A stretch of DNA of 48,120 bases from Elusimicrobia bacterium RIFOXYD2_FULL_34_15 (GTDB taxonomy: Bacteria > Elusimicrobiota > UBA8919): contig MGVS01000012.1 in assembly GCA_001800605.1 (NCBI GenBank), positions 1 through 48,120 of the forward strand. Direction: 5' to 3'. Positions within the stretch are counted from its first letter, which is position 1. Each line of letters begins with the position of its first letter. The position numbers and the translations under genes were made by a program. Positions 7,039-30,345 of this stretch are shown in pieces. The notes under the pieces were generated by a model. That model did no database searches. It was not told where the DNA came from and saw nothing but the letters and a program-made list of their open reading frames with translations.

Positions 7039-7149
7039 GATTACACAGATTTTGGAAAGCGATTACGAGGATTTAAAAGACATGTCCTAATCTGTGTAAT
7101 CTTGTTGTTTAATCTGTGAAATCAGAGATTATTGGTTTTTAATAATCTC
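7039..7149. repeat. Palindromic repeat family B copy 2
   Basis: GATTACACAGATT and GATTACGAGGATT, loop with ACATGTC, then AATCTGTGTAATC and AATCTGTGAAATC, then the hairpin GAGATTATT/AATAATCTC (7125-7149). The hairpin contains the TAA stop of the NUDIX gene on the minus strand. The element lies between convergent genes and could act as a bidirectional terminator, although it has no clear T-run. Confidence 0.85.
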
Positions 7150-9396: not shown

Positions 9397-9415
9397 ATTA
9401 AAAGCAGAAAGGATA

Positions 9416-9455
9416 GTAATGGGTAATGAGTAACGGGTAATGGGCAAGCGGTAAT
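9416..9455. repeat. Dispersed repeat family C
   Basis: GTAATGGGTAATGAGTAACG followed by GGTAATGGGCAAGCGGTAAT, directly before the aroE start. Confidence 0.6.
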
Positions 9456-9475
9456 TTATAATAAAGGGCGAATAA

Positions 9476-13873: not shown

Positions 13874-14237
13874 AATTTCTATTGAAGATAATTTTTCGGC
13901 GGCTCACAATTTAAGAAATTATAAAGGAAAATGCGAGCATTTGCACGGCCATAATTATAAGGTCAGAGTTTTTGTTTGCGGCAAAGTTCTTGATAAAACA
14001 GGAATGCTGTTGGATTTTACAATTTTAAAAGAAATATTAAAGGAAATTACTAATGAATTTGACCATAAATATTTAAATGAAGAAAAACCATTTGATAAAA
14101 TTAATCCGACTGCTGAAAATATTGCGAAATATATATATAGGAGAATCAAGTTAAAAGTTAAAAGTAAAAAGTTAAAAGTAATAGAGGTTGATGTTTGGGA
14201 GACGGAGAAAAATTTCGCAAAATATTATGAAGAATAA
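13866..14237 (+). CDS. queD: 6-carboxy-5,6,7,8-tetrahydropterin synthase
   Basis: A 123-residue QueD, second step of queuosine precursor synthesis (7,8-dihydroneopterin triphosphate to 6-carboxytetrahydropterin). Zinc ligands are the His in SAAHNL and the two His of HLHGHNY; the catalytic Cys is in GKCEHLHGH, and FDHKYLN carries a further active-site His. The stretch LKVKSKKLKV near residues 98-107 is encoded by a family E repeat, while the usual ending (VWETEKNFAKYYE) follows it in frame. It overlaps murI and queC. Confidence 0.94.
   Translation: MFEISIEDNFSAAHNLRNYKGKCEHLHGHNYKVRVFVCGKVLDKTGMLLDFTILKEILKEITNEFDHKYLNEEKPFDKINPTAENIAKYIYRRIKLKVKSKKLKVIEVDVWETEKNFAKYYEE
14144..14180 (-). repeat. 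Family E repeat inside queD
   Basis: The reverse complement reads TTTTAACTTTTAACTTGATT, like the intergenic copies at 3731 and 5271. It is in frame and codes IKLKVKSKKLKV. Confidence 0.65.
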
Positions 14238-14877
14238 GGCGATAGTTCTTTTATCCGGAGGGCTCGATTCTACAACAACGCTTTATCTTGTAAAAAATAA
14301 ATATAAGTGTTTTTGTTTAATATTTGATTACGGGCAACGTCACAGAAAAGAGATTGAAAATGCTAAAAATGTTGCAAAAACGGCAGGATGTAAATATAAC
14401 GTTGTAAAAATATTTCTGCCCTGGAAAGGCAGTTCTTTGATTGACAAAAACAAGAAAATACCTTACAATAAATCCGGATCAATAGGCGGTAAAATACCGT
14501 CAACATATGTTCCGGGCCGTAATACAATATTTTTAAGTTATGCGTTATCTTTTGCAGAAGCAATAGGCGCAAGAAAAATATTTATAGGTGCTAACTCTCT
14601 GGATTTTTCTGGGTATCCCGATTGCAGGCCGAAATATTTTAGAAATTTCAATAGAGTTTTTAAGATTGGAACAAGAAACAAAAATATAAAAATAGAAACG
14701 CCGATAATTTATAAGACAAAAAAAGATATTGTTAAGTTAGGAACAAAACACAAAGTACCTTTTGAACTTACATGGAGTTGTTATTCCGGCGGTAAACATC
14801 CTTGCGGGAAATGTGATTCCTGCATATTAAGAGCAAAAGGATTCAAAGAAGCCGGGGAGGAAGATCCCGTATCATGA
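14227..14877 (+). CDS. queC: 7-cyano-7-deazaguanine synthase
   Basis: A 216-residue ATP-dependent enzyme that turns 7-carboxy-7-deazaguanine into preQ0 with ammonia. The PP-loop SGGLDST is at residues 10-16, and the C-terminal zinc site has four Cys in CYSGGKHPCGKCDSC. The ATG at 14227 gives MKNKAIVLLSGG; the TTG at 14188 would add 13 residues that also read as queD. It overlaps queD by 11 bases and queE by ATGA. Confidence 0.96.
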   Translation: MKNKAIVLLSGGLDSTTTLYLVKNKYKCFCLIFDYGQRHRKEIENAKNVAKTAGCKYNVVKIFLPWKGSSLIDKNKKIPYNKSGSIGGKIPSTYVPGRNTIFLSYALSFAEAIGARKIFIGANSLDFSGYPDCRPKYFRNFNRVFKIGTRNKNIKIETPIIYKTKKDIVKLGTKHKVPFELTWSCYSGGKHPCGKCDSCILRAKGFKEAGEEDPVS

Positions 14878-15566
14878 CTGGAAGAATTTTAGAAATATTT
14901 TCATCAATTCAAGGCGAAGGAATCTATGCCGGAACACCTATGGTTTTCGTCAGGTTTACCGGTTGTAATCTGAACTGTGACTATTGTGATACTCCGGAAA
15001 GTCAAAAGTTAGAAAAAGGAAATATTTTAACAACCGAAGAAATAATAAGCAAAATAGAGCAGGAATTATCTCTTTCCAAAAAAACTTCGATTATATCTTT
15101 TACAGGAGGAGAACCGGTACTTCACGCGGAAATCATTTCCGATATAATTCATAATTTTAAATCAAAAGGGATAAAAAGTTATATAGATACAAATGGAACG
15201 CTTTGTGAAAACTTTTCTAAAATTGTCGATATAATAGATTATGTTGCTATGGATATAAAGCTTCCGTCATCTTGTGAAGCGGAATTTTGGCGGGAACATC
15301 TGGAATTTTTAAAAATGTCAAAAAACAAAACTTTTATTAAGATAGTTTTAACCGCAAAAACAGCTTACAATGAGTTTAGAAAAGCGATCGAAATTATTGA
15401 ACAGGTTGATTCATCTATTCCTTTAGTTCTTCAGCCGGTAACGGTAATAAGGAATATAGAACCAATGCCATTTGATGTTGTACGAGCATTCAGAAAACTT
15501 GCAGAAGAAAAATTGGCAAATGTTTCAATAATTCCTCAAACACACAAAAAAAAGGGAATAAGATAA
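14874..15566 (+). CDS. queE: 7-carboxy-7-deazaguanine synthase (radical SAM)
   Basis: A 230-residue radical SAM enzyme that contracts the pterin ring to 7-carboxy-7-deazaguanine. The cluster Cys are C31, C35 and C38 in GCNLNCDYCDTPES (CxxxCxxC), and the glycine-rich SAM segment is FTGGEPVLH. The start SSIQGEGIYAGTPMVF is diagnostic for QueE. Coupled to queC by ATGA. A weak AT-rich hairpin (AGATAATA/TATTATCT, 15561-15577) overlaps its stop. Confidence 0.95.
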   Translation: MTGRILEIFSSIQGEGIYAGTPMVFVRFTGCNLNCDYCDTPESQKLEKGNILTTEEIISKIEQELSLSKKTSIISFTGGEPVLHAEIISDIIHNFKSKGIKSYIDTNGTLCENFSKIVDIIDYVAMDIKLPSSCEAEFWREHLEFLKMSKNKTFIKIVLTAKTAYNEFRKAIEIIEQVDSSIPLVLQPVTVIRNIEPMPFDVVRAFRKLAEEKLANVSIIPQTHKKKGIR

Positions 15567-15589
15567 TAGTATTATCTGTTTACTCACAA

Positions 15590-15840
15590 AATAGGTTATT
15601 GTTTTATTTACATCGCGGGGTATGACCCCCGCACCCCTGTTAAACTTTTCTTTGGGTGCACAAAGAAAAGTTAGAAAAGAAATGCACCCCGATGGCTATT
15701 TCACTCGTAATTTTTCGGCGGCTGCGGAACTTGCCCTTCGGCTTCGCCAGGATGGGCTTCGAACAGTCCTCGCCGACTACCCCTAAAAATTACTCGCTCA
15801 TTGACAGCCATAAGGGGACTCAAAAAGGCAAGGCAGAATT
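15590..15840. repeat. GC-richer repeat island between queE and queF
   Basis: A 250-bp stretch with two strong hairpins: GCGGGG/CCCCGC (15615-15632) and the 12-bp AACTTTTCTTTG/CAAAGAAAAGTT with loop GGTGCA (15643-15672). Near its right end CTCATTGACAGCCATAAGG (15794-15812) matches, on the other strand, CCTTATGGCTGCCAATGAG at 44163-44181. I see no credible gene; a 63-codon frame at 15656 looks spurious. The last bases (TGGAGA, 15851-15856) are the queF ribosome binding site. Confidence 0.6.
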
Positions 15841-15863
15841 AAAATAAAAGTGGAGAATTGTTT

Positions 15864-16223
15864 ATGGATAAAGTAAAACCCGAAATTTTAGTTGCGATGG
15901 ATTATGAATATGCAGATAAAAAAATAGATATTATAGTTGAGACCGACGAATTCACATGCCTTTGTCCATGGTCAGGCCTGCCTGATTTTGCCCATCTGAA
16001 AATCTGCTACGTGCCGGCAAAACTTTGTGTCGAGTTAAAATCATTAAAACTATATATACAAAGTTATAGAAATGTCGGACTTGTTCATGAAAGCGTAGTA
16101 AATAAAGTACTCGCCGATTTACTAAAATTAGTCAAACCAAAATCAATGTCTGTTGAAGCAGTTTTCAACCTTCGCGGCGGCTTAAAAACCACAGTAAAAG
16201 CAGAATATAAAAAACCCCGTTAG
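15864..16223 (+). CDS. queF: NADPH-dependent 7-cyano-7-deazaguanine reductase (preQ1 synthase)
   Basis: A 119-residue short-form QueF that reduces the nitrile preQ0 to preQ1. The thioimide-forming Cys is C34 in TCLCPWSGLPDFA, with the proton-relay Asp at D41. The family motif ELKSLKLYIQSYRN lies at 57-70. The ATG at 15864, seven bases after TGGAGA, is preferred over the TTG at 15858. The last two codons and TAG (CCC CGT TAG) are the left end of a family A element, so the native C-terminus may have been replaced. It completes QueD-QueC-QueE-QueF. Confidence 0.95.
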   Translation: MDKVKPEILVAMDYEYADKKIDIIVETDEFTCLCPWSGLPDFAHLKICYVPAKLCVELKSLKLYIQSYRNVGLVHESVVNKVLADLLKLVKPKSMSVEAVFNLRGGLKTTVKAEYKKPR

Positions 16224-16335
16224 AGATAGGAAGCGTTTTGTAATGCTTCCGTGAGGTAAAGATAAAATCTTTAAGCATATTACTATTCTTATTTTTAATA
16301 ATTAATATTTGGTATATCAAACATCTCTAATGGGG
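16215..16335. repeat. Palindromic MITE-like element, family A copy 2
   Basis: 121 bp, ends CCCCGTTAGAGAT and ATCTCTAATGGGG, with the hairpin GGAAGCGTT...AATGCTTCC (16229-16250) beside the left end, so it is inserted opposite to copies 1 and 3. The left end holds the queF stop codon. Confidence 0.88.
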
Positions 16336-16344: not shown

Positions 16345-18309
16345 ATGTCAAAGAAAAAAATATTTTCTACTATTTTTCTTTTTGTATTAATATATTTATC
16401 TTTATTTCTAAAATATGTTTATTCTTTCGAATATGATAATACTTTAATTTTGGAAAATGATTTGGATATTGAACAGGCATATCAAAATGAAGAAATTAAT
16501 TATAATATGTATACTCAGCTTCTTGCAATTTATGATAATAAAATAGATATAAATTCAGCGGATATTTATAAATTACAATTACTTCCGGATTTTAGTTCGG
16601 CAGATGCTTCAAAAATAATTGAATATCGTAAAAAAAACGGATTTTTCAAAAATATAAGCGGATTGGTTGAATCAGGAATTATAGATGAAAGTACGTATAA
16701 TAAAATAAAAATTTTTATTATTGCTGAAATGCCCGGAGAAAAAACAAGGGGTAATGTAATATTAAAAACAAAATCTAATCCGTATATTGAAACAAAAACA
16801 ATAGATTATCCGAAAAATTATGATTTGCTAAATTTGAATGTTTCAAAAATAAAAAAATATTTCAAATTTGGGGCTATAGTTGAAGGTGATGCCAGATATA
16901 GAAATTATTTTCAGTTTGGAGATGATTTAACCGGCGGAAATTTGGAGCATGGATACCGACTAAATAAGGCGTATCTTGGTTATGAGGACGGACCGCTTGT
17001 AAAACAGATGTATATTGGAAATTTTTGTGCAAATTTCGGGCAAGGGCTTACTTTCGGAAATTTTTTAAACTCATCTTCAAACGGACTTTTGCCGGATCAA
17101 ATAAATTCGCAAGAAATCCAGGCGGTTTTTTACAGCAGTTCGAGCATTGGCACGGAGATAAATGATAAATACACATACGGCTATACAAGAAGACATCTCC
17201 GGGGTATGGGCAGTCGGATTATAATAAACGATTTTGATTTAACAGGGTTTTATTCTCAGGCAGACTATCCTGCAATAAGGCATTTTATTACAAATTTCGG
17301 CAAATCTTATTATATGAAACTTGAAGATATATATTCGGAAAAGTTATTAGGTTCTAATTTGACATATAAAATCAGCGAACAAACTCCGGACATAGGCGAA
17401 ACTTTTATCGGGACCACTTTATACACTTCTGAAAGAGAACCTAAAAAAAGCACAAGTATAAATGTTCCGAATTGGCCTCCGGATGAATCTTTTTTTGTTT
17501 ACGGAGCAAATTTTGTAACCGGCTATAAAAATTTTCATTTTTTTGGTGAAATAACAAAAGTAAACAATATGGGTAATGCCTGGTATCTAAAAATGGACAA
17601 GGATATCGGAATACTGAATGTTATATATTCACATTTATACTCTGGAGCAGATTTTTTTAATCCGTGGTCCAGCCTATATGAGGAATTAGGCGGGGAAACA
17701 GATTATATCGAATTTGCTCTAAAATTATCACAAACAATGAAAACAAAATTTTATTTTAAACAATCGGAATACATATATAAAGATGAAAATGATATAGATG
17801 TATATTATGATAATACTTACGGAACTCCGGCTGTAGATAAAAAAGTATATATAAACTACAATTGGCAGTTACCGGATAACATTAATTTCCAGATAGACAG
17901 GAAATGGGATAATAATGATATTTACTCAAAAGGCGGTATGACGGTTGCAACATCGCTGCAATTTAGATTTAATCCGACAAAATTCAGCGGAATTACCATA
18001 AGATATAAATATACGGAAGGAAATCATGATTTACCTTTTCAATACATACCAAAAGATGAGATTTTGGGCAGAATCAGTTACGATATTATCAAGAATTTTG
18101 AAATAGCAAGTGAAATAAAATTTGTTGATTTAGATTTAAATGAGTTTAATAGAGAATATCGCCAATATTGGATACAGGTTTCAGGTAATATTTTTAAACA
18201 TGCTTATCTACGCTCTCGTTTTACTAATAAATGGGAAATAGAAGAACTATTGCAAGATGGCGGTTCTTACACCAATAGATGGGAGCTGAGATTTGATTAT
18301 AAATGGTGA
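16345..18309 (+). CDS. Outer-membrane beta-barrel protein with N-terminal helix-hairpin-helix region
   Basis: 654 residues. Residues about 1-28 are a signal peptide (KKKIFSTIFLFVLIYLSLFL). About 70-125 forms a ComEA-like helix-hairpin-helix segment (INSADIYKLQLLPDFSSADA, KIIEYRKKNGFFKN). The rest, from about 145, is rich in alternating aromatic/polar strands and ends in WELRFDYKW; a C-terminal aromatic residue is the usual outer-membrane barrel sorting signal. I read this as a periplasmic DNA- or protein-binding head attached to a barrel. The start follows a family A element by 9 bases and no strong Shine-Dalgarno site is seen. Proximity to pilus-type ATPases makes a role in surface assembly or DNA uptake possible, but this is only inference. 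Confidence 0.75.
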   Translation: MSKKKIFSTIFLFVLIYLSLFLKYVYSFEYDNTLILENDLDIEQAYQNEEINYNMYTQLLAIYDNKIDINSADIYKLQLLPDFSSADASKIIEYRKKNGFFKNISGLVESGIIDESTYNKIKIFIIAEMPGEKTRGNVILKTKSNPYIETKTIDYPKNYDLLNLNVSKIKKYFKFGAIVEGDARYRNYFQFGDDLTGGNLEHGYRLNKAYLGYEDGPLVKQMYIGNFCANFGQGLTFGNFLNSSSNGLLPDQINSQEIQAVFYSSSSIGTEINDKYTYGYTRRHLRGMGSRIIINDFDLTGFYSQADYPAIRHFITNFGKSYYMKLEDIYSEKLLGSNLTYKISEQTPDIGETFIGTTLYTSEREPKKSTSINVPNWPPDESFFVYGANFVTGYKNFHFFGEITKVNNMGNAWYLKMDKDIGILNVIYSHLYSGADFFNPWSSLYEELGGETDYIEFALKLSQTMKTKFYFKQSEYIYKDENDIDVYYDNTYGTPAVDKKVYINYNWQLPDNINFQIDRKWDNNDIYSKGGMTVATSLQFRFNPTKFSGITIRYKYTEGNHDLPFQYIPKDEILGRISYDIIKNFEIASEIKFVDLDLNEFNREYRQYWIQVSGNIFKHAYLRSRFTNKWEIEELLQDGGSYTNRWELRFDYKW

Positions 18310-18437: not shown

Positions 18438-18509
18438 TATAAGAGTTTAAAAACAATAGATAAAAAGCAATAAATGCTTCAGTTTTTAGTTTTTAAGGAT
18501 TTGTATAAA

Positions 18510-19211
18510 ATGGATAGTAATACAGGAAGGAATTTTAGGAAAACAGTAAGAGAAGATACCGATTTCGATGTAGAAATTTTTGCACAGGATCAGTTTACAG
18601 CATTAGGAACAGGGAAAATCGTTGATATATCTGTTGAGGGTATGTCAATGATATCTGTTACTACTTTATCGGTTGGTACGAATATTTTCCTTCAATTTGT
18701 ACTTAATAAGGATTTTCTCACTATAAAAGCAACGGTTGCCAGAGCTGACCAGGGTAGAATTGATAATAACTATGGTCTGAAATTTATAGAAGTACAGCCA
18801 TTTTTAAAAATCAAACTTGAGCAGTATATTCTTCAGCAATATTTAAAACAATTTATAACTCAAGGACAAAAAGCATCCGAAAAAAGAGACCTGGGAAGAA
18901 AAACTGTAGATATCATAGCAAAATTATACAAAATGCCGGATAGAGAACTGGAAGGAGAAGGTGAGGGAATCGATATCAGTCCCCATGGCATAGCCCTAAA
19001 AACCGATGTTTTCATTTTTGTAAACACAAAAGTAAAAGTTATTTATAAATTTGGAAAAGATTCTGTTATTCTTCCCGGAGAAATTATCGGGATGAACTCT
19101 GAAAAATGGAAACGTATCTACAGAATTAGATTTGATGAAATAAATCCAAAATATTCCAAATTCATCCAGGAAAATATAACCAGGTTAAGTGAAATAGAAG
19201 TAGAATATTGA
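18510..19211 (+). CDS. Protein with two PilZ domains (predicted c-di-GMP receptor)
   Basis: About 233 residues. First PilZ domain: RKTVR at 10-14 (RxxxR) and DISVEG at 39-44 (DxSxxG). Second: RDLGR at 126-130 and DISPHG at 155-160. Both keep the residues that hold c-di-GMP. No membrane segment or enzyme domain. The ATG at 18510 lies nine bases after AAGGAT and starts the protein just before the first motif; an upstream ATG at 18474 has no ribosome binding site. It is followed after 14 bp by the TPR gene. A tandem PilZ adaptor next to PilB-type ATPases suggests c-di-GMP control of pili or secretion. Confidence 0.85.
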   Translation: MDSNTGRNFRKTVREDTDFDVEIFAQDQFTALGTGKIVDISVEGMSMISVTTLSVGTNIFLQFVLNKDFLTIKATVARADQGRIDNNYGLKFIEVQPFLKIKLEQYILQQYLKQFITQGQKASEKRDLGRKTVDIIAKLYKMPDRELEGEGEGIDISPHGIALKTDVFIFVNTKVKVIYKFGKDSVILPGEIIGMNSEKWKRIYRIRFDEINPKYSKFIQENITRLSEIEVEY

Positions 19212-19225
19212 AAAAATAACATGAT

Positions 19226-20866
19226 ATGAATATTAAAAAAGTTGAAGCATTAAAACGGGAAGGCCGTTATCAGGAAGCATTGAAATTTTATTTAGAGCAT
19301 GCGAAATCTAATCCAAAAGATATTTTGGGATGGAAAGGCGTTGGTTTTTGTTTGCAAAAACTGGAAAAATACAGCGAAGCAATAAAATATTATGATACCG
19401 CATCCCATATCAGTCCTTCCGATATAGAGATATGGTTTAATAAAGGATTGTGTTTGGGGATGACCGGAGCATTTAAAGATTCGATAGAATGTTATAATAA
19501 CCTGCTCAAATATGATCAATATAACAATAATGCCTGGATAAATAAAGGCGTATGCCTGGCAATGTTGCAGCAGCACGAAGATGCTCTTGAATGTTACGAC
19601 AAGGTGATACAAAGAGATCAAAAAAATTATTTGATATGGTATAACAAGGGATGTTCACTTTACCGGCTACAACAGTATCCGGAAGCATTAGAATGCTATA
19701 ATAAAGCGATAGTAATAGAGCAAAAAGACTCAAAGGTTTGGTATAACAGAGGATTAGCATTAAATGTATTGGGAAAACATAAAGACGCAATAGAATCTTT
19801 TGATAAGGTTATTGAGATGTCACCCAGAGATTATATGGCGTTATTCAACAAGGGTAAAATCTTAGTAACTTTGAAAAGTTATCAAGAGGCGATAACATGT
19901 TTTAATCAATCAATGAGTATTAAGGCTGATAATCCTAATATATTATTTCAAAAAGGAAAAATTCTTGCAACTTTACACCGCCATGAAGAAGCGGCATTTT
20001 GTTTTGAACAGGCTCTGCGGATTTCCCCGGATAATTATAAAATGTGGTATGAAAGAGGCGCAGCATTAATAATTCTAAAGAAGTACAATGAAGCGATAAA
20101 AAGTTTTGATAACGCAATAAAATATTCTTTTAATCAGGATACTAAAAGCTGGCTTGAAAAGATTCGTTGTTTTATAAATCTTGGATCTTTGGAGCAGGCA
20201 CTTAAAACGTGCGAAGAAGCCATGGAAGCAAACATAAACGAACCGAAATTATATTATGAAAAAGCTATCGTATTGGAAAAACTTAAAAATTACAGTCAGG
20301 CAGTAGAAAATTATGATATATATCTTAAGAGTTTTCCGAAAGACGAAGACACAATACTTATAAAAGCATATTGCCTGCAATTGTCTGGTAAATATAAAGA
20401 AGCGATAGATAATTATAATATTGTATTAGGAACTGACGTTGTTTTACCGGATATAATGACTCCTGAAAAAGTTGCGATGTACACAAAATGGCTGCCTTTA
20501 AAAGCTTCGTGCCTTATTAACAATAAGTCTTATGACGATGCGCTGAAAACAATTGATGTTGTAATAAGTTTAATGCTGAAGACAGATGTGGTTAGTGATG
20601 CACGGATATGGATAACAAAAGGAAACGCGCTATTTTGGCAGGGCAGATACGAAGATGCATTGAAGTCTTACAATCTGGCATTATCGCTTAATAAAAATAA
20701 TATAGAAGCTTTATATCAGAAAGGCTGCAGTCTTTTAACCTTGGATAAAGTGAAAGAAGCATTAGAATGTTTTAATGCCATATTGGCGATTGACGTCGAA
20801 AATATAGAGGCAATTAAAAAACGAGAGTATTGCCTGCAATTGGTTGGCGAAGATAATACCAGATAA
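19226..20866 (+). CDS. Tetratricopeptide repeat protein
   Basis: 546 residues built almost wholly of 34-residue TPR units, about 14-15 in number, with the W-x-NKG-x-L / A-x-x-x-Y/F pattern (for example IWYNKGCSLYRLQQYPEALE). There is a break with a longer insertion near residues 400-440. No signal peptide is seen, so a cytoplasmic scaffold is likely. The short intergenic distance to the PilZ gene, and the kinase-like gene 60 bp downstream, suggest one functional unit. Partner proteins cannot be named from sequence. Confidence 0.88.
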   Translation: MNIKKVEALKREGRYQEALKFYLEHAKSNPKDILGWKGVGFCLQKLEKYSEAIKYYDTASHISPSDIEIWFNKGLCLGMTGAFKDSIECYNNLLKYDQYNNNAWINKGVCLAMLQQHEDALECYDKVIQRDQKNYLIWYNKGCSLYRLQQYPEALECYNKAIVIEQKDSKVWYNRGLALNVLGKHKDAIESFDKVIEMSPRDYMALFNKGKILVTLKSYQEAITCFNQSMSIKADNPNILFQKGKILATLHRHEEAAFCFEQALRISPDNYKMWYERGAALIILKKYNEAIKSFDNAIKYSFNQDTKSWLEKIRCFINLGSLEQALKTCEEAMEANINEPKLYYEKAIVLEKLKNYSQAVENYDIYLKSFPKDEDTILIKAYCLQLSGKYKEAIDNYNIVLGTDVVLPDIMTPEKVAMYTKWLPLKASCLINNKSYDDALKTIDVVISLMLKTDVVSDARIWITKGNALFWQGRYEDALKSYNLALSLNKNNIEALYQKGCSLLTLDKVKEALECFNAILAIDVENIEAIKKREYCLQLVGEDNTR

Positions 20867-20886
20867 ATAAATAAAAGTACAAGATG

Positions 20887-20911
20887 TGATTGTTTAATTT
20901 TTTAACAATCA
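20887..20911. repeat. Solo hairpin of family B
   Basis: TGATTGTT/AACAATCA, the small hairpin of family B without its 13-mer arms. It lies 15 bases before the kinase-like gene and creates an in-frame TTG that can be mistaken for the start. Confidence 0.6.
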
Positions 20912-20925
20912 TACAATATAAATTT

Positions 20926-23900
20926 ATGGTCCAAGAATTAATTCGCAACAGATATCTTCTATTGAAAGAAATAAATTTAAATGAAATTGCTACTATATTT
21001 CAGGCATGGGATTATAATCTTGAAAAAATAGTTGCGGTTAAAAAAATCCACCCTTATTTAACTTCAAGTGACGAAGTTGCCAATTCCCTTTATCATCAGA
21101 TAATAAAATCTTCAAAATTACGGCATAAAAATATACTTCCAATTCACGATTTCTTCAAAAGCGTTGATAATGTGTGTTACATAGTAATGGAATATGCTAA
21201 GGGCAAGGATTTAGATACTTTATTAAAAAAATGCAAAGAAACGGGAGCGCTGTTTCCTTTTGAACTGACATTGAAAATAATGACTGAAATAAACCAGGCG
21301 CTTTGCTATGCGCATGAAATAAAAGACAAAAATATCAATGCGGCCAACGGTATTTTTCATCTAAACCTGTCTCCAAGCAACATAATGATATATAAAGATG
21401 CTTCCGTAAAATTATCGGATTTCGGTGTCAGCAGGATACTTTTAAATTCGCATAGAAGTCCTATAAAAGGCAAGCATAAAGAAAGATGTTATTATATGTC
21501 TCCGGAAGAAGTTGAAAATAAATATATTGACGGACGTTCAGATTTGTTTTCTTTCGGCATTATATTCTATGAACTTCTCACCGGCATCCATCCTTTCGCA
21601 GTAAAAGATGAACAGCAAACAAAAGAAAATATATTGAAAGTTGAACCCGATATATCCGGTATACCTTCTAACCTACAGCCGTTTATTAAGAAACTCTTGG
21701 AGAAAGATCCGGAAAAAAGATATCAATCGGCCAAAGAGTTTTCGCTGGCGTTTTCGATCTTTATTTCAAGTATTAAATTCGGTAAAAGACAGGATGATCT
21801 TTTAAGGTTTGTTATAAAGCTTTTTCCGGATTTTCAATCTTCAGATGAAACCGACAAAATAACTTCGAAAGATATGAAATCCAAGGTCAATATCACCGAA
21901 GATTTCGAGATGGGAAAACCGCCGTCATTTGAAACTAATTTTGAAGGTGTTGTCAGTAAAACAGCAACAGTGGAAGCAGAACGGTACAAATTAAAAGAAG
22001 AAACAGTTAAAAAACCGGTTACTGCTCCGGTAAGCGCAAAAGAACCTTACAAACCTAAAATAGCAGAAGCAGCTGCCAAAAAAATTGTTGTTAAAGAGCA
22101 AAAACCTAAAATTAAAATTAAATTACCTTCGTTACCAAAATTACCTTCATTACCGAAATTGCCTTCGTTGCCAAAATTACCCAAAATAAAAATAAAACCG
22201 GCTATCTTGGTGAAGTCATTAATAATTATAGGTTTGTTGATATTCGAAATGTTTTTTGATATACCGCAAGGATTTTCACCGTTAGGAAAATTAGTTAAAC
22301 GTTCATTTTTACCCATTGATGTTTATATTGATACCACTCCAACAGGCGCAAGAATCAAACTTATCAATTCAAAAAATAAGGATTTAATTGCGGACAAGAA
22401 AGTATATAACATAACACCTGTTAGGTTATCCAATGTTGTTTCCGGTGAATATACGCTGGTTTTGTCAAAAGAAGGATTCAATGATGCGGAGCGAAAAATT
22501 GTAATAAACAGGAAAAAAATTAATCGTAGAAGTAATAGAGTAGAAATAGTAATGCCATTTGAGGTTAAATTCGAAATTGTTTCCATCCCAGACGGCGCCG
22601 ATATATATATTAATTCAGAAAAAAAGAGTTCAATTACACCGGCTGTTGCTTCATTGGAAGCAAAAACCTATAGTATTAAATTGTTAAAAGAGGGTTTTGA
22701 TCCGATAGAATGCAGTGTCGATTTATTAAATGGTAAAAATAGTATAGATGAAAATTTTTGGAAACTGGAATCATCAATCCAAGGCGAGAAAAAAGATTTC
22801 AAGTTATCGGGTACAATGCAGAAAGAGGTCATTATCGAATCAAATCCGCCTGAAGCAAAGATATTTATTGCTGATTCTAATCAATTGATTGGCAACACTC
22901 CCATAAAAATAAAACTAAAAGCAGGCGAACAGCATTTCAGAATAACTAAAGACGGCTACAAAGCAGTTGATAAATACATCGAAATAAAAAGTAAAGAAGA
23001 TAAAAGATTCGTTATAAACATGAAAAGGATAGGAGCAAAGCTAGACGTTAACTCCAGCCCGGATGGTGCGGATATTGTTATTAATGGTGAAAAAACCGGA
23101 TTGCTGACACCGGCTTCAATAACTCTGGAACCAAAAGTTTACTCGATCAGATTATCTAAAGAAGGATTATCATCAATAAAATGTAATATTGACCTGGTGG
23201 AAGGTAAGCACACGCTGGATAGCGATATATGGAATTTGGAAGTATCAACCCAAAAAGAAGAGAAAAATTATAAATTATTCGGTACTTTAGAAAAAGAAAT
23301 AAGCATAGAAACAAATCCAAGTGATGCAAGGGTATATTTTGCTGAAAGTGATCAATATATAGGAAATTCACCGCTTAAGGTAAAAATGAAAGTGGGAATA
23401 CAACGTCTGCGAATATCAAAAGTAAAATACGAATCCATAAATGCGAAAATAGAAGTTTCTGAGAATATGGACGGTAGAGCGGTATTCAATTTGAAACCCA
23501 CTGCATCAAAACCTGTTATTGTAAAAATTAAGGTGGAGGTTGATTCGAATCCGAAAGGTGCTGATATATATATTAACAATGAGAAAACAGGCCTGATAAC
23601 TCCGACTTCGATATTATTAGAGCCAAGACAATTTGCAGTAAAACTGAATAAAGAAGGTTTTATCGCAATCGGTAGTACTAACATTGACAAAACTTCAGCG
23701 GCAAAAGGAAGATGTATTGTAGATTTGGTTGAAAGCAAGCATAATTTGGACAGAAATTTATGGAGTATGGAAGTCTCATCGCAGAAAACAGAAAAGAATT
23801 ACAGATTATTTGGAACGCTTGAAAAAGATATTTCTATAGAAACAAATCCTGATAATGCTAAAATATATTTTGCTGACAGTGATCAGTATATTGGTAATTC

Positions 23901-24036
23901 TCCTATAAAAATAAGATTAAAAGCCGGTACTTACCGTTTACAAATAATAAAAGCAAAATATAAACCGATATTAACAAATATTAATATAGAAAGCAAGCAA
24001 GATGATAAATTCACTTTCGATTTAAAGCCTTTTTGA
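20926..24036 (+). CDS. Membrane protein with Ser/Thr kinase-like domain and seven PEGA repeats
   Basis: About 1036 residues. Residues 1-285 are a protein kinase fold: lysine K39 in VAVKKIHP, DFG at 165-167, and the YYMSPEEV segment (usually APE). The catalytic loop reads HLNLSPSN at 145-152 where active kinases have HRDxKPxN, so the catalytic Asp is Asn147. Residues about 395-420 hold LPSLPK tandem repeats, then one membrane helix at 426-446. After it, seven PEGA-type units start at motifs such as IPDGADIYIN, SPDGADIVIN and NPKGADIYIN. The PEGA part should be periplasmic. I infer a pseudokinase or weak kinase that senses the cell surface. The ATG at 20926 is chosen as the preceding TTG lies in a repeat hairpin. 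Confidence 0.88.
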   Translation: MVQELIRNRYLLLKEINLNEIATIFQAWDYNLEKIVAVKKIHPYLTSSDEVANSLYHQIIKSSKLRHKNILPIHDFFKSVDNVCYIVMEYAKGKDLDTLLKKCKETGALFPFELTLKIMTEINQALCYAHEIKDKNINAANGIFHLNLSPSNIMIYKDASVKLSDFGVSRILLNSHRSPIKGKHKERCYYMSPEEVENKYIDGRSDLFSFGIIFYELLTGIHPFAVKDEQQTKENILKVEPDISGIPSNLQPFIKKLLEKDPEKRYQSAKEFSLAFSIFISSIKFGKRQDDLLRFVIKLFPDFQSSDETDKITSKDMKSKVNITEDFEMGKPPSFETNFEGVVSKTATVEAERYKLKEETVKKPVTAPVSAKEPYKPKIAEAAAKKIVVKEQKPKIKIKLPSLPKLPSLPKLPSLPKLPKIKIKPAILVKSLIIIGLLIFEMFFDIPQGFSPLGKLVKRSFLPIDVYIDTTPTGARIKLINSKNKDLIADKKVYNITPVRLSNVVSGEYTLVLSKEGFNDAERKIVINRKKINRRSNRVEIVMPFEVKFEIVSIPDGADIYINSEKKSSITPAVASLEAKTYSIKLLKEGFDPIECSVDLLNGKNSIDENFWKLESSIQGEKKDFKLSGTMQKEVIIESNPPEAKIFIADSNQLIGNTPIKIKLKAGEQHFRITKDGYKAVDKYIEIKSKEDKRFVINMKRIGAKLDVNSSPDGADIVINGEKTGLLTPASITLEPKVYSIRLSKEGLSSIKCNIDLVEGKHTLDSDIWNLEVSTQKEEKNYKLFGTLEKEISIETNPSDARVYFAESDQYIGNSPLKVKMKVGIQRLRISKVKYESINAKIEVSENMDGRAVFNLKPTASKPVIVKIKVEVDSNPKGADIYINNEKTGLITPTSILLEPRQFAVKLNKEGFIAIGSTNIDKTSAAKGRCIVDLVESKHNLDRNLWSMEVSSQKTEKNYRLFGTLEKDISIETNPDNAKIYFADSDQYIGNSPIKIRLKAGTYRLQIIKAKYKPILTNINIESKQDDKFTFDLKPF

Positions 24037-24051
24037 TCTAAAGGGGGATGA

Positions 24052-25767
24052 ATGGCAAGATTAGGTCAAATTTTAATTACAAGAAATAAGATCAGCCAGG
24101 AGCAGCTGCAGGAAGCGCTATTAGTACAAAGAGAGAAAAAACATAAATTGGGAAAAGTACTAATTGACTTGGGTTATATTACCGAAGAAGATTTTATGCG
24201 TGCTCTTGCCGAATCAAAAAATTTAGAGTTTATTCGTATAACAGATGCTCTTGTAATACCGAAAGAAGTTGAAAATATTGTACCTTATGATTATGCATTT
24301 AAAAATAAAATAATTCCTATTGCAGTTTCAAGAGACGGAAATACTTTATATATAGCAACAAGCGCCTTGAACGAAGTTATATTCGACGATCTAAAACATA
24401 TATCCGGAAATAAAAACATCGTTCCAAAATTAACAATGGAAACCGACATAAATACATATTTTGAAGCACATTCTAAAAAAAGTTTTGAAGAAATGATAAC
24501 AGGCATTTATTCTGAATCTACTTTAAGCGACGATGCCGATAAATTAGAGGTTGTCAGAGAAGAAGAGATAGGAAAATCAGAAGATCAGGCGCCTGCAGTA
24601 AAAGTTGTAAATGAAATTATGATGCGTGCTGTTGACGCAAGGGCAAGCGATATCCATTTAGAGCCATATGAGCGCGGCATGTATTTACGTTACAGAATAG
24701 ACGGCGTTTTATATGATCAGCCGGCATTACCGAAGAAACTTCAAAACTCGGTTATTTCAAGAATAAAAATTATGGCAAAACTTGATATAGCGGAGCGAAG
24801 ACTTCCCCAGGACGGCAGAATAAAAATCAGATTCAGTGAAAAGGAAATAGACCTAAGAATTTCTATTTTGCCGACTATACACGGCGAGAAAGCGGTTATC
24901 CGTATTCTTGATCCTGGTTCACTTTGTGTTGACTTAAGTAAACTCGGTATCGAACCTGAAGCTCTTGAAATATACAAAGCCAGAATAAAAACACCATATG
25001 GTATACTATTGGTTACCGGTCCTACGGGAAGCGGTAAAACAACCACTTTGTATTCCACAATAACAACAATAAATAGCCGTAACGTAAATATCGTAACAAT
25101 TGAAGACCCGGTTGAATATGTTATTCAGGGTATAAATCAGGCGCAATGCCAAAGCGACATTGGTTTCACTTTTGCAAATGCGTTAAGATCTTTTTTAAGG
25201 CAGGATCCGGATATTATAATGGTCGGTGAAATTCGCGATACTGAAACAGCAGAGATCGCAATAAACGCTGCTCTTACGGGACATTTGGTTTTATCCACAC
25301 TGCATACAAACGATTCTGCAGGAGCAATTACGCGATTGACCAATATGGGTATAGAACCGTTTCTTATTTCATCAACACTTATTATGTCTGTAGCACAAAG
25401 ACTGGTTAGAAAATTATGCCCGGATTGTCGTCAACCGATAGAATGGTCTGCGCAGAAACTTAACGAAATGGGTATAGATACATCAATCCAATATCCTCCG
25501 GATACGGAAAAAGTTACTCTTTATTTTGCTAAAGGATGTAATAAATGCATGAATACCGGTTATGTCGGGCGAATTGGATGTTACGAAATAATGGACATGA
25601 CAGATGGTGTTAGAGAACTTATTATACAACGTGCTTCTGCGCAAGAAATAAAAGAACATGCAATAAAAATAGATAAAATGGCAACCATAAGAAGAGATGC
25701 TTTAAGAAAATTATTTGCCGGTGTAACGACGCTTAAGGAAGTATTAAGAGTTTCAAGCAAAGACTAA
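24052..25767 (+). CDS. pilB: Type IV pilus/type II secretion assembly ATPase with MshEN domain (PilB/GspE)
   Basis: A 571-residue hexameric ATPase that powers pilus or pseudopilus assembly. Residues 3-45 match the MshEN c-di-GMP-binding motif: RLGQILITRNKISQEQLQEA and, 30 residues on, LGKVLIDLGYIT. Walker A GPTGSGKT is at 323-330; the Asp box IEDPVEY, Walker B IMVGEIRD and His box LHTNDSAG follow. A zinc tetra-Cys site is formed by CPDC and CNKC. A strong GGGGGAT precedes the ATG, 15 bases after the PEGA gene. Direct c-di-GMP control of this ATPase is inferred from the motif. Confidence 0.92.
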   Translation: MARLGQILITRNKISQEQLQEALLVQREKKHKLGKVLIDLGYITEEDFMRALAESKNLEFIRITDALVIPKEVENIVPYDYAFKNKIIPIAVSRDGNTLYIATSALNEVIFDDLKHISGNKNIVPKLTMETDINTYFEAHSKKSFEEMITGIYSESTLSDDADKLEVVREEEIGKSEDQAPAVKVVNEIMMRAVDARASDIHLEPYERGMYLRYRIDGVLYDQPALPKKLQNSVISRIKIMAKLDIAERRLPQDGRIKIRFSEKEIDLRISILPTIHGEKAVIRILDPGSLCVDLSKLGIEPEALEIYKARIKTPYGILLVTGPTGSGKTTTLYSTITTINSRNVNIVTIEDPVEYVIQGINQAQCQSDIGFTFANALRSFLRQDPDIIMVGEIRDTETAEIAINAALTGHLVLSTLHTNDSAGAITRLTNMGIEPFLISSTLIMSVAQRLVRKLCPDCRQPIEWSAQKLNEMGIDTSIQYPPDTEKVTLYFAKGCNKCMNTGYVGRIGCYEIMDMTDGVRELIIQRASAQEIKEHAIKIDKMATIRRDALRKLFAGVTTLKEVLRVSSKD

Positions 25768-25771
25768 ATTG

Positions 25772-25894
25772 CCCCGTTAGAGATGCGTTTGTATAGTAAA
25801 AAAAGTCATAAAAATTAGAAAGTTAATTGTATTTTGAATATTTATAAATAAATGACGGAAGCATTTTTTCAAACGCTTCCTATCTCTAACGGGG
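25772..25894. repeat. Palindromic MITE-like element, family A copy 3
   Basis: 123 bp, ends CCCCGTTAGAGAT and ATCTCTAACGGGG, perfect inverted ends of 13 bp. Internal hairpin GGAAGCATT...AACGCTTCC at 25857-25880 beside the right end. It separates the two ATPase genes, starting five bases after the first stop. Confidence 0.9.
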
Positions 25895-25910
25895 TATAAA
25901 GAGGTGCAAA

Positions 25911-27731
25911 ATGGTTCAAGCGGTTGGCAGGAAAAAATCCTGTAAAGAAATACTTCTCGATAAGAAAATATTAACTGATGAACAAATTTTAAAAGTTGAA
26001 GAAGAAGTCAAAAAATCAGGTACGCTCTTCCAGCAGTGTGTTATTGATTTAAAGCTTGTCGAAAAAGGGCAGCTGCTCAAACTTTTGTCAAATGAATGGG
26101 TTGTTAAGGCAATAGACCTATCCGTAATGGATGTAGATCCGGAAGTCGCCAAAATCATTCCCAAACAATCTGTTAAAAGGTATAACGCTGTTCCTTTTGC
26201 AAAAGAAGAAAACATTTTATTTGTTGCCATGGCGGACCCTCGCGATTTATTTGCAGTTGAAGATATCAATTTAAGAACGGGTTTTCAGGTCCAGCCTTAT
26301 TTGGCATTTCCTGAAGATATTAAAATAGTCGTAGATAAAGTTTATGGTGCGGAAGATACACAACAGTCAGAAGAGGAAGAAGACAAGCCGGCAGCACCTA
26401 CAACAACAGCTTCTGCGGCAGAATTAGCAGATGATGCTAAAGAACTTACCGCCGAATTAATAGCAGGCCTGGATTCCGGCGATGAAATTCAGGTAGATAA
26501 AAATAGAGAAGAGTCGTCCGACATTATGCAGGTTGATACTTCTGCTCCCGAGGTTGAAAAACTTGTTAATGCAATCATTTTGGAAGCAATGCGTCTTAAA
26601 GCGTCAGATATTCATATTGAACCATTTGAAAAAAAATTCGCTGTCCGTTACCGGGTAGACGGGGATTTAAGGCGTGCAACTTTTAAGATACCAATGAGTT
26701 TCAAACAAGCACTAATTGCAAAAATAAAAATTATGTCCGGCACAATGAATCTTACTGAACGCAGAATTCCTCAGGACGGCAGAATTCAGGTGAAAGCAAG
26801 GGGAAAGCCGATAGAATTCCGCGTAAACATCATTCCGACGATATACGGTGAAAGTGCTGTAATGAGAATTTTAGACAGATCCGGTTCGTCTGCCAAGCTG
26901 GAACAATTAGGATTTTTACCAGATACTATTGATAAGTTTATGGCATGTCTTGCAAAGCCGTTTGGACTGATTCTTGTTTGCGGTCCAACCGGTAGCGGTA
27001 AATCCTACACGCTTTCCGCTGCACTTGCTGCAGTTCGTGACCCGGCCGAAAAAATATTAACCGCTGAAAATCCGGTTGAATATAATTTGGATGGCGTGAT
27101 TCAGGTACAGGTAAATCCGGACTTAAAAATGGGCGATAAAGTTTTTGATTTTGGTATGGCATTGCGTTCTTTTTTAAGGCAGGATCCCGATGTAATTATG
27201 GTCGGTGAAATCCGTGATAGAGAGACAGGGCAGATTGCCATGGAAGCAGCTATGACGGGGCATCTGGTTTTGTCTACAATTCATACTAACGATGCACCTT
27301 CTGCCGTATCAAGGCTTTCAGAGATGGGTATTCATACATTTCTTGTTGCGAACACAACCGAGTGCATACTCGCTCAGCGCCTTATCGGCACATTATGCAA
27401 GAGTTGCAAAGAACCGGACCCGAACCCGCCGGAAGACTTAATCAAAATGTTAGAACTTAAAAAAATAGATTACTCAAAAGCAACATTCATGAAAATGCAC
27501 CAGGGCGGTTGTCCAAAATGCGGCGGCAGGGGTATGAAGGGTAGAACTGCGATACATGAGCTTTTAGTAATGAATGAAGAGTTACGCAGACTTTGTATAA
27601 AAGAATCTTCAGTAGGTCCGATACGAGATTTGGCTGTAAAAAATGGGATGCGTCTTCTTGTTGAAGACGGCCTGATAAAAATAACAATGGGAATGACGAC
27701 TTTTGAAGAATTAATGGCAGCAGCGAATTAA
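25911..27731 (+). CDS. Second PilB/GspE-family ATPase
   Basis: 606 residues. The N-terminal domain (SCKEILLDKKILTDEQILKV...) resembles MshEN in layout but has lost the RLG and Gln residues, so c-di-GMP binding is doubtful. An acidic linker of about 60 residues follows. Walker A GPTGSGKS is at 358-365; the Asp box reads TAENPVEY, with Asn in place of the usual Asp; Walker B IMVGEIRD and IHTNDAPS are intact. Zinc Cys pairs are CKSC and CPKC. It is only moderately similar to the first ATPase, so it is not a recent duplicate. GAGGTG precedes the ATG. Confidence 0.9.
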   Translation: MVQAVGRKKSCKEILLDKKILTDEQILKVEEEVKKSGTLFQQCVIDLKLVEKGQLLKLLSNEWVVKAIDLSVMDVDPEVAKIIPKQSVKRYNAVPFAKEENILFVAMADPRDLFAVEDINLRTGFQVQPYLAFPEDIKIVVDKVYGAEDTQQSEEEEDKPAAPTTTASAAELADDAKELTAELIAGLDSGDEIQVDKNREESSDIMQVDTSAPEVEKLVNAIILEAMRLKASDIHIEPFEKKFAVRYRVDGDLRRATFKIPMSFKQALIAKIKIMSGTMNLTERRIPQDGRIQVKARGKPIEFRVNIIPTIYGESAVMRILDRSGSSAKLEQLGFLPDTIDKFMACLAKPFGLILVCGPTGSGKSYTLSAALAAVRDPAEKILTAENPVEYNLDGVIQVQVNPDLKMGDKVFDFGMALRSFLRQDPDVIMVGEIRDRETGQIAMEAAMTGHLVLSTIHTNDAPSAVSRLSEMGIHTFLVANTTECILAQRLIGTLCKSCKEPDPNPPEDLIKMLELKKIDYSKATFMKMHQGGCPKCGGRGMKGRTAIHELLVMNEELRRLCIKESSVGPIRDLAVKNGMRLLVEDGLIKITMGMTTFEELMAAAN

Positions 27732-27734
27732 GGC

Positions 27735-27918
27735 AGTACACAGAATACAGTACACAGAATATCCGCCACTTCCGCCACTGAAACTTTGGGGGACAAGAAA
27801 TCGTAGGCGGGCAGGCAGTACTCAGTATATAGATTTCTAAATAATTAAAAACTGTATCCTGTGTACTGTGTACCGATTTTTAGCTGTATCCAGTATCCTG
27901 TATCCTGAGTACTAATAA
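27735..27918. repeat. Family D repeat cluster
   Basis: Inverted copies of the CTGTATCCTGTGTACTGT unit: one set on the minus strand at 27735-27762 and several on the plus strand at 27850-27912, around a GC-rich core (CCGCCACTTCCGCCACTG). No gene is seen. GGGAGTG at 27919-27925 is the ribosome binding site of the next gene. Confidence 0.65.
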
Positions 27919-27932
27919 TGGGAGTGTAAAAA

Positions 27933-28964
27933 ATGCCGGGAAAAAACTTTGATTTTACAGAATTTTTTGAAATTGCAAGAACCATAACATCAACATTAGA
28001 TGTTGATTCTGCTCTCAAAAAAATCGGTTCAGCTGCAGAAAAATTAACTAATACCATGGCATCTTCAATAATGCTTTTAGATGAAGACGGTAAGAATTTA
28101 TATTTTAAAGTTGCAAGCGGAGACAAAGGAACGGTTCTTACCAAATTAAAAGTTCCGGTTGGTGAAGGCATTGCCGGCTGGGTTGCCAAAAACAAGGAAC
28201 CGCTTGTAATACAGGATGTAAGCACCGATCCGCGTTTCACCGGAAAAATAGATTCAGAATCAGGGTTCAGGACCCGATCCATATTATGTGTTCCTCTAAT
28301 AGTCAATAACGAACTTATCGGTGTTGCAGAGGTATTAAATAAAATTGACGGTTCGCAATTTACTGAAGAGGATAAAATAATTTTAATGAATCTCTCAAAT
28401 TTTGCTGCGGTTGCAATAATGAATGCAAAAAATATTTCAGATCAGCAGAATTTCTTTGCAAATATTTTCGAAATACTTACAAATTCTTTTGAATCAAAAG
28501 ACAGGTCATTGTCCGGTCATTCATTTAGGGTGGCACAACTTGCAACAGCTATCGCAAGGGAGCTCAATATAACCGGTTCACAATATAAAGATATATACTA
28601 TGCCGCTATTCTGCATGATGTTGGTTTTTTAAATTCTACCGAGTATACAACATTTGATCATTCAAGAGATAAAGTACATCCAACAACAGGTTATGAAATG
28701 ATAAAAAATATAAATCTTCTCAGAAATTGTGCACTTCTAATAAAATATCATCATCTTATGTATGATGGTTCGGGCTACCCGCAGGAAGGCTTAAAAAAAG
28801 ACTCAATTCCGATAGGTGCAAGAATAATATCTTTCGTCGAGTCGATTGAGGATATGCGGATTTACAATACATCAGACGAGAAAATAAAACAAGCTATAGA
28901 ATCCCAAAGAGATATAAAATATGATCCCGCAGTAGTAAATGCATATCTGAAAATCAGTGAATGA
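27933..28964 (+). CDS. GAF domain plus HD-GYP domain protein
   Basis: 343 residues. Residues about 20-165 form a GAF sensor domain (VPVGEGIAGWVAKNKEPLVI is its hallmark). Residues about 185-330 are an HD-GYP domain: HSFRVAQLA, HD at 228-229 in ILHDVG, HPTTGYEMI, and YDGSGYP with GYP at 281-283. HD-GYP proteins hydrolyse c-di-GMP to GMP. The HD and GYP motifs are intact, so activity is likely. The chain ends somewhat early after the domain. It overlaps the receiver gene by ATGA, suggesting a two-protein phosphodiesterase and response-regulator pair. Confidence 0.9.
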   Translation: MPGKNFDFTEFFEIARTITSTLDVDSALKKIGSAAEKLTNTMASSIMLLDEDGKNLYFKVASGDKGTVLTKLKVPVGEGIAGWVAKNKEPLVIQDVSTDPRFTGKIDSESGFRTRSILCVPLIVNNELIGVAEVLNKIDGSQFTEEDKIILMNLSNFAAVAIMNAKNISDQQNFFANIFEILTNSFESKDRSLSGHSFRVAQLATAIARELNITGSQYKDIYYAAILHDVGFLNSTEYTTFDHSRDKVHPTTGYEMIKNINLLRNCALLIKYHHLMYDGSGYPQEGLKKDSIPIGARIISFVESIEDMRIYNTSDEKIKQAIESQRDIKYDPAVVNAYLKISE

Positions 28965-29350
28965 TTAATAAAAAAATTCTTATTGTAGATGACGACAAAA
29001 ACATAGTCGAATTACTTAAAACTTTAGTTACTCCCATCGGTTGCGAAATTTTTACTGCCTGCGACGGTGCGGAGGCATTTTCAGTATACCGCAGGGAAAA
29101 ACCACAACTTGTAATACTTGACATAATGATGCCAAAATTTTCAGGTTATCAGGTGTTACACCGCATGAAAAAAGATGAATCATTTAAACCTTTCCCAAAA
29201 GTTTTAATGCTATCCGCAAAATCTAATCCGGAAGATATCCGGCAAGCCGAAATGTTCAAGTGCGATGCATATTTAACAAAACCATTCGAACCGGAAGACC
29301 TCGTAAAAAAAGTCAAAGAATTGCTTGATCTAAAAAACTATAATTTATAA
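28961..29350 (+). CDS. Single-domain response regulator (receiver)
   Basis: 129 residues, receiver domain only. Acidic pair in VDDDKN at the start, phosphoacceptor D54 in ILDIMMPK, and the Lys in LTKPFEP near 107-113. No output domain. It is translationally coupled to the HD-GYP gene, so the two probably act together. The sensor kinase is not in the window. Confidence 0.92.
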   Translation: MINKKILIVDDDKNIVELLKTLVTPIGCEIFTACDGAEAFSVYRREKPQLVILDIMMPKFSGYQVLHRMKKDESFKPFPKVLMLSAKSNPEDIRQAEMFKCDAYLTKPFEPEDLVKKVKELLDLKNYNL

Positions 29351-29352: not shown

Positions 29353-30270
29353 ATGGAAAACATCATTGCCGAAATAAACAAATTAAAAATAAGCAAAAAG
29401 GCAGTTATTCTCTCTCATAACTATCAACTGCCTGAAATTCAGGATATCGCTGATTTTGTCGGTGATTCTTTGGAATTATCAAGGAACGCCGCAGATACTG
29501 ATGCAAATATTATTGTTTTCTGCGGAGTTAATTTCATGGCAGAAACCGCAAAAATTCTTTCTCCGAAAAAAACCGTTCTTCTACCCGACTTAAGAAGCGG
29601 CTGTCCGCTTGCAGACATGGTTACCCCGGATGATATAAAAAAATTGCGGGAAGAGAACCCCGGAGCAGAAGTTGTATGTTATATAAATACTTCAGCTGAA
29701 GTAAAAGCAGAATGCGATATATGCTGTACTTCTTCCAATGCGGTTGACATTGTTAATTCAGTTAATTCAGATATGGTAATCTTTTTACCGGATAGAAATC
29801 TCGGCAATTATGTCTCAAAACACACAAAAAAGAAAATGATAATCTGGAATGGTTATTGTCCGACTCATGAAAATCTTAAAATAGAAGATGTTTTAGAAAT
29901 GAAAAAATTATATCCTAATGCAAAATTTGTCGCACATCCGGAATGCACGGAAGATGTATTGAAACTTGCTGACAAAATAACCTCAACCAGCGGAATAATA
30001 AAATATGTAAAAACAGATCCTTCTAAAGATTTTATAATAGGAACCGAAACAGCTATTTTACACCGTCTAAAAAAAGAAAGCCCGGAAAAAAACTTTATTC
30101 CCGCTTCCCGGAAAATGTACTGTCCAAACATGAAATATAATAACCTTGAATCTTTATACGAATCACTCCTTAATGAGGAGCCCGAAATGGAAGTTCCAGA
30201 AAAAATCCGCCAAAAAGCATACCTTACTATAAAGAAAATGTTAGATGTTTCAAAAATAATTGTTTCCTAA
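29353..30270 (+). CDS. nadA: Quinolinate synthase A
   Basis: A 305-residue [4Fe-4S] enzyme that condenses iminoaspartate with dihydroxyacetone phosphate to quinolinate, first committed intermediate of NAD synthesis. Three cluster Cys are visible in SGCPLADM, GYCPTHE and MYCPNMKYNNL. The first motif is LSHNYQLPEIQDIADFVGDS and AHPECTEDVL is also typical. Its partner nadB lies 0.9 kb downstream. The gene begins two bases after the receiver stop. Confidence 0.95.
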   Translation: MENIIAEINKLKISKKAVILSHNYQLPEIQDIADFVGDSLELSRNAADTDANIIVFCGVNFMAETAKILSPKKTVLLPDLRSGCPLADMVTPDDIKKLREENPGAEVVCYINTSAEVKAECDICCTSSNAVDIVNSVNSDMVIFLPDRNLGNYVSKHTKKKMIIWNGYCPTHENLKIEDVLEMKKLYPNAKFVAHPECTEDVLKLADKITSTSGIIKYVKTDPSKDFIIGTETAILHRLKKESPEKNFIPASRKMYCPNMKYNNLESLYESLLNEEPEMEVPEKIRQKAYLTIKKMLDVSKIIVS

Positions 30271-30303
30271 AAACTGTATCCTGTGTACTGTATTCTGAGT
30301 ACT
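30271..30303. repeat. Family D repeat
   Basis: AACTGTATCCTGTGTACTGT, then ATTCTGAGTACTA, immediately after the nadA stop. It makes a false in-frame GTG start for the following gene. Confidence 0.6.
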
Positions 30304-30345
30304 ATTTACCGCATTTTGGATATTATAATAAACTCTATAAACACA

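Follow-up and report, generated by a model that had tools for sequence, protein, structure and literature searches.

A Pilus-Control Gene Block in an Elusimicrobia Genome as a Possible Join of Two Modules after Loss of a Tad Core

Introduction

How does a block of genes that encodes two pilus-type ATPases among apparent regulators come to hold no structural pilus gene? The question is raised by a 48,120-nucleotide stretch of DNA (the window), which is the whole of contig MGVS01000012.1 from Elusimicrobia bacterium RIFOXYD2_FULL_34_15 (genome G000, contig C12; 2.47 Mb in 119 contigs, 97% complete). At 18474–29350 of the window, seven consecutive genes on the + strand encode a tandem PilZ (PilZ-PilZ) protein, a tetratricopeptide repeat (TPR) protein, a kinase-like protein with PEGA repeats, two PilB-type ATPases (PilB1 and PilB2), a GAF-HD-GYP protein, and a receiver (REC). 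The explanation favored here, with moderate confidence, is that the block is a join of two pilus-control modules after loss of the core of a Tad pilus locus, with PilB1 and PilB2 as alternative motors of a type IVa pilus (T4aP), each with its own proposed inputs. Module A comprises the PilZ-PilZ, TPR, PEGA pseudokinase, and PilB1 genes, and module B comprises PilB2 and GAF-HD-GYP, often with nadA.

An initial annotation of the window had counted eight genes in this interval, one too many. Its account of their content otherwise agrees with the coordinates and profile matches: consecutive genes on one strand; tandem PilZ, TPR, and kinase-like proteins, the last with a transmembrane segment and seven PEGA repeats; two PilB-type ATPases; GAF and HD domains; a receiver whose reading frame overlaps that of HD-GYP (ATGA); and no pilin, PilC, secretin, or GGDEF gene inside. 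Its view of a single block linked by cyclic dimeric guanosine monophosphate (c-di-GMP) is borne out by the PilZ motifs and not by the unity of the block, which consists of two modules that differ in age and distribution and are separated in relatives. The description of the block as a unit that controls pili, and not itself a pilus operon, suits G000; in relatives, each module adjoins or forms part of a Tad pilus operon.

Gene Order in Relatives and Probable Loss of the Tad Core

The gene order is not unique to the window. In Elusimicrobia bacterium UBA9627 (G001, contig DMMW01000081.1), a second species of the same genus, the same order runs from PilZ-PilZ to HD-GYP, up to the contig end, with protein identities of 65–91% and a synonymous divergence (dS) above 1. 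Because this order recurs in an independent assembly at such identity, it is not due to chance, and it is a genus-level feature; UBA9627 was the sole match in a scan of genome contigs with the tandem PilZ protein. Neither outcome that the initial annotation had named as refuting it was seen: a second species shows the order too, and homologues elsewhere do adjoin pilus genes.

The two modules differ in how widely they occur. Among 341 Elusimicrobiota genomes, module A is found in three, from the window's genus and one sister genus (G002). The PilZ-PilZ protein is full-length in 3 of the 341, and PilB1 orthologues above 60% identity are confined to G000, G001, and G002. Module B is an old, widespread Elusimicrobiota pair. 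PilB2-HDGYP-nadA is a constant unit in G002, in G003, G004, G005, and G007 of the same family, and in G008 of a sister family, with nadA as the conserved 3′ neighbor in the family and in G008. PilB2 also adjoins an HD-GYP homologue in G011, G034, G036, and G038, and the PilB2 sequences of different Elusimicrobiota families group together in a supported clade. At three loci (L101 in G036, L102 in G034, and L103 in G028), PilB2 or PilB2-HDGYP is followed by genes for malic enzyme or fumarase.

In relatives, both modules are found with Tad (Flp) pilus genes. Module B is the 3′ end of the Tad operon in G005 and G008, where the order is CpaB-TadZ/A-TadB-TadC-sensor-TPR-LTD-DUF192-secretin-PilB2-HDGYP-nadA (the G008 locus is split: its PilB2 breaks off where one contig stops and resumes on contig C101, along with the genes after it). 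Module A directly precedes the Tad operon in G002, in the order PilZ2-TPR-PEGA-(ABC transporter, one more open reading frame)-PilB1-CpaB-TadZ/A-TadB-TadC-sensor; elsewhere in that genome lies DUF192-secretin-PilB2-HDGYP-REC-nadA, with A and Tad on contig C1 and B on contig C2.

The Tad core was not detected in G000, absence calls here being made on draft metagenome-assembled genomes that are 89–98% complete. Nothing above background PilB/PilT matches was found for TadA/CpaF (TadZ/A-like) in G000 or G001, against matches of 69–100% in G002, G005, G006, and G008. The TadB and TadC platform pair was not found in G000, whose sole T2SSF gene is the T4aP PilC. For the Tad secretin, G000 and G001 gave only a 28–29% match within a frame of 564–584 aa, as expected of PilQ; orthologues at 65–100% are present in G002, G004, G005, and G008. 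A T4aP locus of G000 lies on contig C46 (PilB-PilT-TPR-PilC-pilin-prepilin peptidase). G003, G004, and G007 likewise lack Tad, and because they keep the PilB2-HDGYP pair, the pair is not dependent on Tad.

The ancestral locus may have had the order A-Tad-B, the middle of which, the Tad core, would have been lost in this genus, bringing A against B. Judged from gene order in the relatives, such a deletion would be the simplest history. Its main rival, possible but doubtful, is that module A travels as a cassette and was inserted on two separate occasions, ahead of Tad in G002 and ahead of PilB2 in the window's genus, with Tad lost independently and no A-Tad-B ancestor. Travel of this kind fits the separate contigs of A+Tad and B in G002 and the palindromic element at the A/B junction (Table 1), but it requires insertion twice, each time 5′ of a different part of a locus that forms a single operon in G005 and G008. 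REC also adjoins HD-GYP in G000 and G002 and in no other family member seen (in G001, the contig stops short of REC), which argues for one shared locus.

Several points weigh against deletion and reuse by the T4aP. No genome has a contiguous A-Tad-B locus, a point that also favors the travelling cassette, and the deletion is read from a handful of draft genomes. PilB1 may have evolved to serve Tad, because it is linked to Tad in G002. Finally, modules A and B may not be co-expressed, because the palindromic element between them may end transcription.

PilB1 and PilB2 as Probable Motors

A T2SSE core is present in both ATPases, complete with the Walker A/B, His box, and tetracysteine motifs, and their TIGR02538 scores (608 and 558 bits) lie below the equivalog cut-off of 675.65. 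PilB1 groups on the T4aP PilB side of the tree, on a long branch. Because G000 has one T2SSF platform protein (PilC) but, by PF00437, four PilB-type and five PilT-type ATPase genes, PilB1 and PilB2 would most likely be alternative extension motors of its single T4aP. That one or both do not polymerize pilins, and are instead regulatory or decoy ATPases or the power source of an unrecognised secretion step, is improbable; the four PilB-type genes for one platform protein and the diverged N-domain of PilB2 would suit it, but the Walker A, LRQDPD, HTND, and tetracysteine motifs are intact in both proteins, and PilB2 stands beside PilT genes in G011.

The c-di-GMP-gated ATPases MshE and PilF carry two 24-residue motifs with a 5-residue spacer (PMC5013675). 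Where the initial annotation assigned an MshEN motif to the first ATPase, PilB1 has two MshEN-like motifs that are in register with this spacer but imperfect: in motif 1, the turn Gly is replaced by N and one hydrophobic residue by K, while in motif 2, which fits a relaxed pattern, K and S stand in place of R and Q. The motif is absent from PilB2 and its relatives.

Contig C30 of G000 (locus L106) encodes two further proteins of note. At 9213–11363 is a 717-aa PilB-type ATPase with MshEN and a C-terminal receiver fusion, clustered with REC and REC-HD-GYP genes, and at 14227–15888 is a 554-aa fusion of PilZ to a class I/II aminotransferase, an unusual combination.

Table 1. Coordinates of block genes, their motifs, and adjoining features in the window.
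Feature	Position	Strand	Details
Tandem PilZ protein	18510–19211	+	233 aa from M13 of listed open reading frame 18474–19211; PF07238, two stretches
PilZ-1 motifs	18537–18551; 18624–18641		RKTVR; DISVEG
PilZ-2 motifs	18885–18899; 18972–18989		RDLGR; DISPHG
Cytosolic TPR protein	19226–20866	+	546 aa, about 15 repeats; Pfam TPR families and repeat register
Pseudokinase with 7 PEGA	20926–24036	+	PF00069, 7x PF08308; hydrophobic segment 22195–22263
Pseudokinase motif	21358–21381		HLNLSPSN for HRDxKPxN; glycine loop absent
PilB1	24052–25767	+	Extension-type ATPase; MshEN-like N-terminus 24058–24216; Walker A 25018–25041; tetracysteine
Palindromic element	25772–25894	.	13-nt perfect arms CCCCGTTAGAGAT; module A/B junction; DNA fold z −5.9
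PilB2	25911–27731	+	Extension-type ATPase; MshEN fold without c-di-GMP motif; Walker A 26982–27005; tetracysteine
GAF and degenerate HD-GYP	27933–28964	+	
HD-GYP motifs	28611–28628; 28830–28856; 28749–28781		HDVGF for HDxGK; VESIEDM for SDxxDAL; GYP loop
Stand-alone receiver	28961–29350	+	Canonical DD / D54 / K
nadA	29353–30270	+	Starts 3 bp after REC stop

Tandem PilZ, TPR Protein, and PEGA Pseudokinase

The two PilZ motifs first annotated hold up: RxxxR and DxSxxG are intact in both PilZ domains of G000, which suggests c-di-GMP binding. The PilZ-1 motifs are kept in all three orthologues; in the alignment, the PilZ-2 DxSxxG is lost in G001. The predicted structure has two barrels (mean predicted local distance difference test score 69, medium confidence) and Foldseek matches to MrkH, VCA0042, and YcgR; a sequence search of the PDB with PilZ-PilZ found no homologue. 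Since G000 has seven GGDEF matches, c-di-GMP can be made elsewhere in the genome.

The kinase-like protein carries PF08308 in seven stretches (E 3e-71). The three orthologues lack two marks of an active Ser/Thr kinase, the Gly-rich loop and the catalytic Asp of HRD (replaced in HLN/HFN), and the G002 orthologue has DFR for DFG, so that the term pseudokinase used in the annotation appears apt on sequence grounds. A frameshift in the G001 gene was considered and rejected, the break being a run of N. A literature search on PEGA-domain kinases linked with pili returned nothing relevant. Orthologues also indicate better starts for the PilZ gene (18510) and the kinase-like gene (20926).

In the proposed mechanism, recruitment or licensing of PilB1 would fall to tandem PilZ (through c-di-GMP) together with the TPR protein, on the model of PilZ-PilB-FimX and SgmX-PilB. 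An envelope signal received at the PEGA stalk would be relayed by the pseudokinase to TPR/PilZ.

GAF-HD-GYP and Receiver

The GAF-HD-GYP protein aligns full-length with PmGH (4mcw), an active phosphodiesterase of the same architecture. It retains six of the eight metal ligands (H189, H221, D222, H250, H276, and H277) as well as the GYP loop, and differs by K225F, E185S, D305E, and D308E, with no counterparts of R314 and K317; position 225 is non-K in 12 of 12 PilB2-linked homologues aligned. In PmGH, the alanine mutants K225A and D308A reduce activity as metal-ligand loss does, K225A being inactive (PMC4159591). The full set expected of an HD-GYP phosphodiesterase (metal ligands, K225, and D308) is not present. 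The c-di-GMP breakdown initially ascribed to this protein is therefore doubtful, because K225 is lost and D305 and D308 are E, and the HD-GYP domain is probably inactive.

These residues also bear on the reading of the block as an ordinary c-di-GMP turnover operon, in which an active HD-GYP phosphodiesterase switched by REC/GAF would set local c-di-GMP for PilZ and PilB1. The whole-length match to PmGH and the retained ligands and GYP loop favor it, but the substitutions at 225, 185, 305, and 308 and the missing R314/K317 make it unlikely. Under the favored explanation, PilB2 would have GAF-HD-GYP and REC as its FimX-like effector, one that senses a ligand and is probably non-hydrolytic. In G011, PilB2-HDGYP and two PilT genes are immediately preceded by a CHASE2 adenylate/guanylate cyclase gene (L104, 8606–10366). 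Together with the NK..F...D pattern retained by the GAF domain of this HD-GYP family, this neighbor hints at a cyclic mononucleotide input.

Selective Constraint

Constraint was estimated between G000 and G001 with Nei-Gojobori values, leaving out the C-terminal half of the kinase-like gene (not aligned in frame) and the TPR and REC genes (dS saturated). Ratios of nonsynonymous to synonymous divergence (dN/dS) are 0.036–0.16 for module genes with a value and 0.036–0.043 for PilB1, PilB2, and HD-GYP; these ratios are rough because dS exceeds 1, a further caution for the favored explanation, while the dN ranking stands. No other gene in the comparison has a dN as low as PilB1 (0.058) and PilB2 (0.055); HD-GYP stands at 0.079 and the neighbors AroC, AmiC, MurI, QueE, and QueF at 0.12–0.20, so the block is not a relic. 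A functionless, decaying leftover of the Tad locus, to which the undetected Tad core and the loss of the PilZ-2 DxSxxG in G001 might point, is very improbable in view of these low ratios between species at dS > 1 and of open reading frames that are all intact, the single G001 break being a run of N.

Flanking Genes and Intergenic Repeats

The transcription-unit context extends past REC, because nadA follows at 3 bp and PilB2-HDGYP-nadA is conserved in relatives. Upstream of the block, 16345–18309 encodes a protein of 654 aa. It begins with a signal-like stretch, contains a ComEA-type helix-hairpin-helix domain, and has a long C-terminal region that matches nothing in Pfam; at 47% identity to its G001 counterpart, it is the fastest-evolving gene compared.

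Palindromic repeats with CCCCGTTAGAGAT arms lie at 3055–3177, 16215–16230, and 25772–25894. Late insertion of the junction element in G000 was considered and dropped, since the PilB1-PilB2 junction of G001 also has a palindrome, imperfect but sharing these core arms; in G001 the core is found as well at the spot matching 16215. Three further dispersed intergenic families are present (CTGTATCCTGTGTACTG, AATCTGTGTAATC, and CGTCATTGCGAGAGCC: 27734–27913, 30268–30312, and 42206–42236; 7037–7123; 40880 and 44024).

Comparison with Known Systems

The closest parallels are known pilus-control systems. In PilB-PilZ-FimX (Xanthomonas citri, PMC8389850; see also PMC11656802), a PilB-type motor is likewise encoded with PilZ, and another c-di-GMP-type protein takes part whose output domain is degenerate; here PilB2 has no MshEN motif of its own. 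The systems differ in that PilZ is tandem with c-di-GMP motifs here and non-binding in X. citri (PMC8389850), GAF-HD-GYP takes the place of GGDEF-EAL, and the TPR protein and PEGA pseudokinase are extra. In MglA-SgmX-PilB of Myxococcus xanthus (PMC11580455), SgmX has 14 TPR repeats against about 15 here, and each TPR protein goes with a PilB pathway, a likeness at the level of generic TPR; no PEGA protein is described there.

Conclusions

The block is a form of known pilus control and not a new system; it is real, constrained, and explainable. Gene content, gene order in the relatives, the undetected Tad core, strong constraint, and the motif losses are observed, whereas the deletion, physical contacts, ligand binding, and use of the modules by the T4aP are inferred. 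A more specific scheme, tentative and rather doubtful, is a motor-exchange switch in which one T4aP has several extension ATPases, PilB1 licensed by the envelope-sensing PEGA pseudokinase via TPR/tandem PilZ and PilB2 by GAF/pseudo-HD-GYP; such a switch would have formed as the Tad pilus disappeared and the remaining pilus took over its control genes.

The locus would be a case of pilus control genes outliving their own pilus locus, readable across one family, and it raises the testable question of why several extension motors persist where there is a single platform protein. A recurrent Elusimicrobiota pair is defined as well: PilB2 together with a GAF-HD-GYP that lacks K225, where sensing of c-di-GMP or another nucleotide may have moved from motor to partner, as in PilB-FimX. 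The wider interest lies in control modules kept after loss of Tad and in this PilB2/pseudo-HD-GYP pair.

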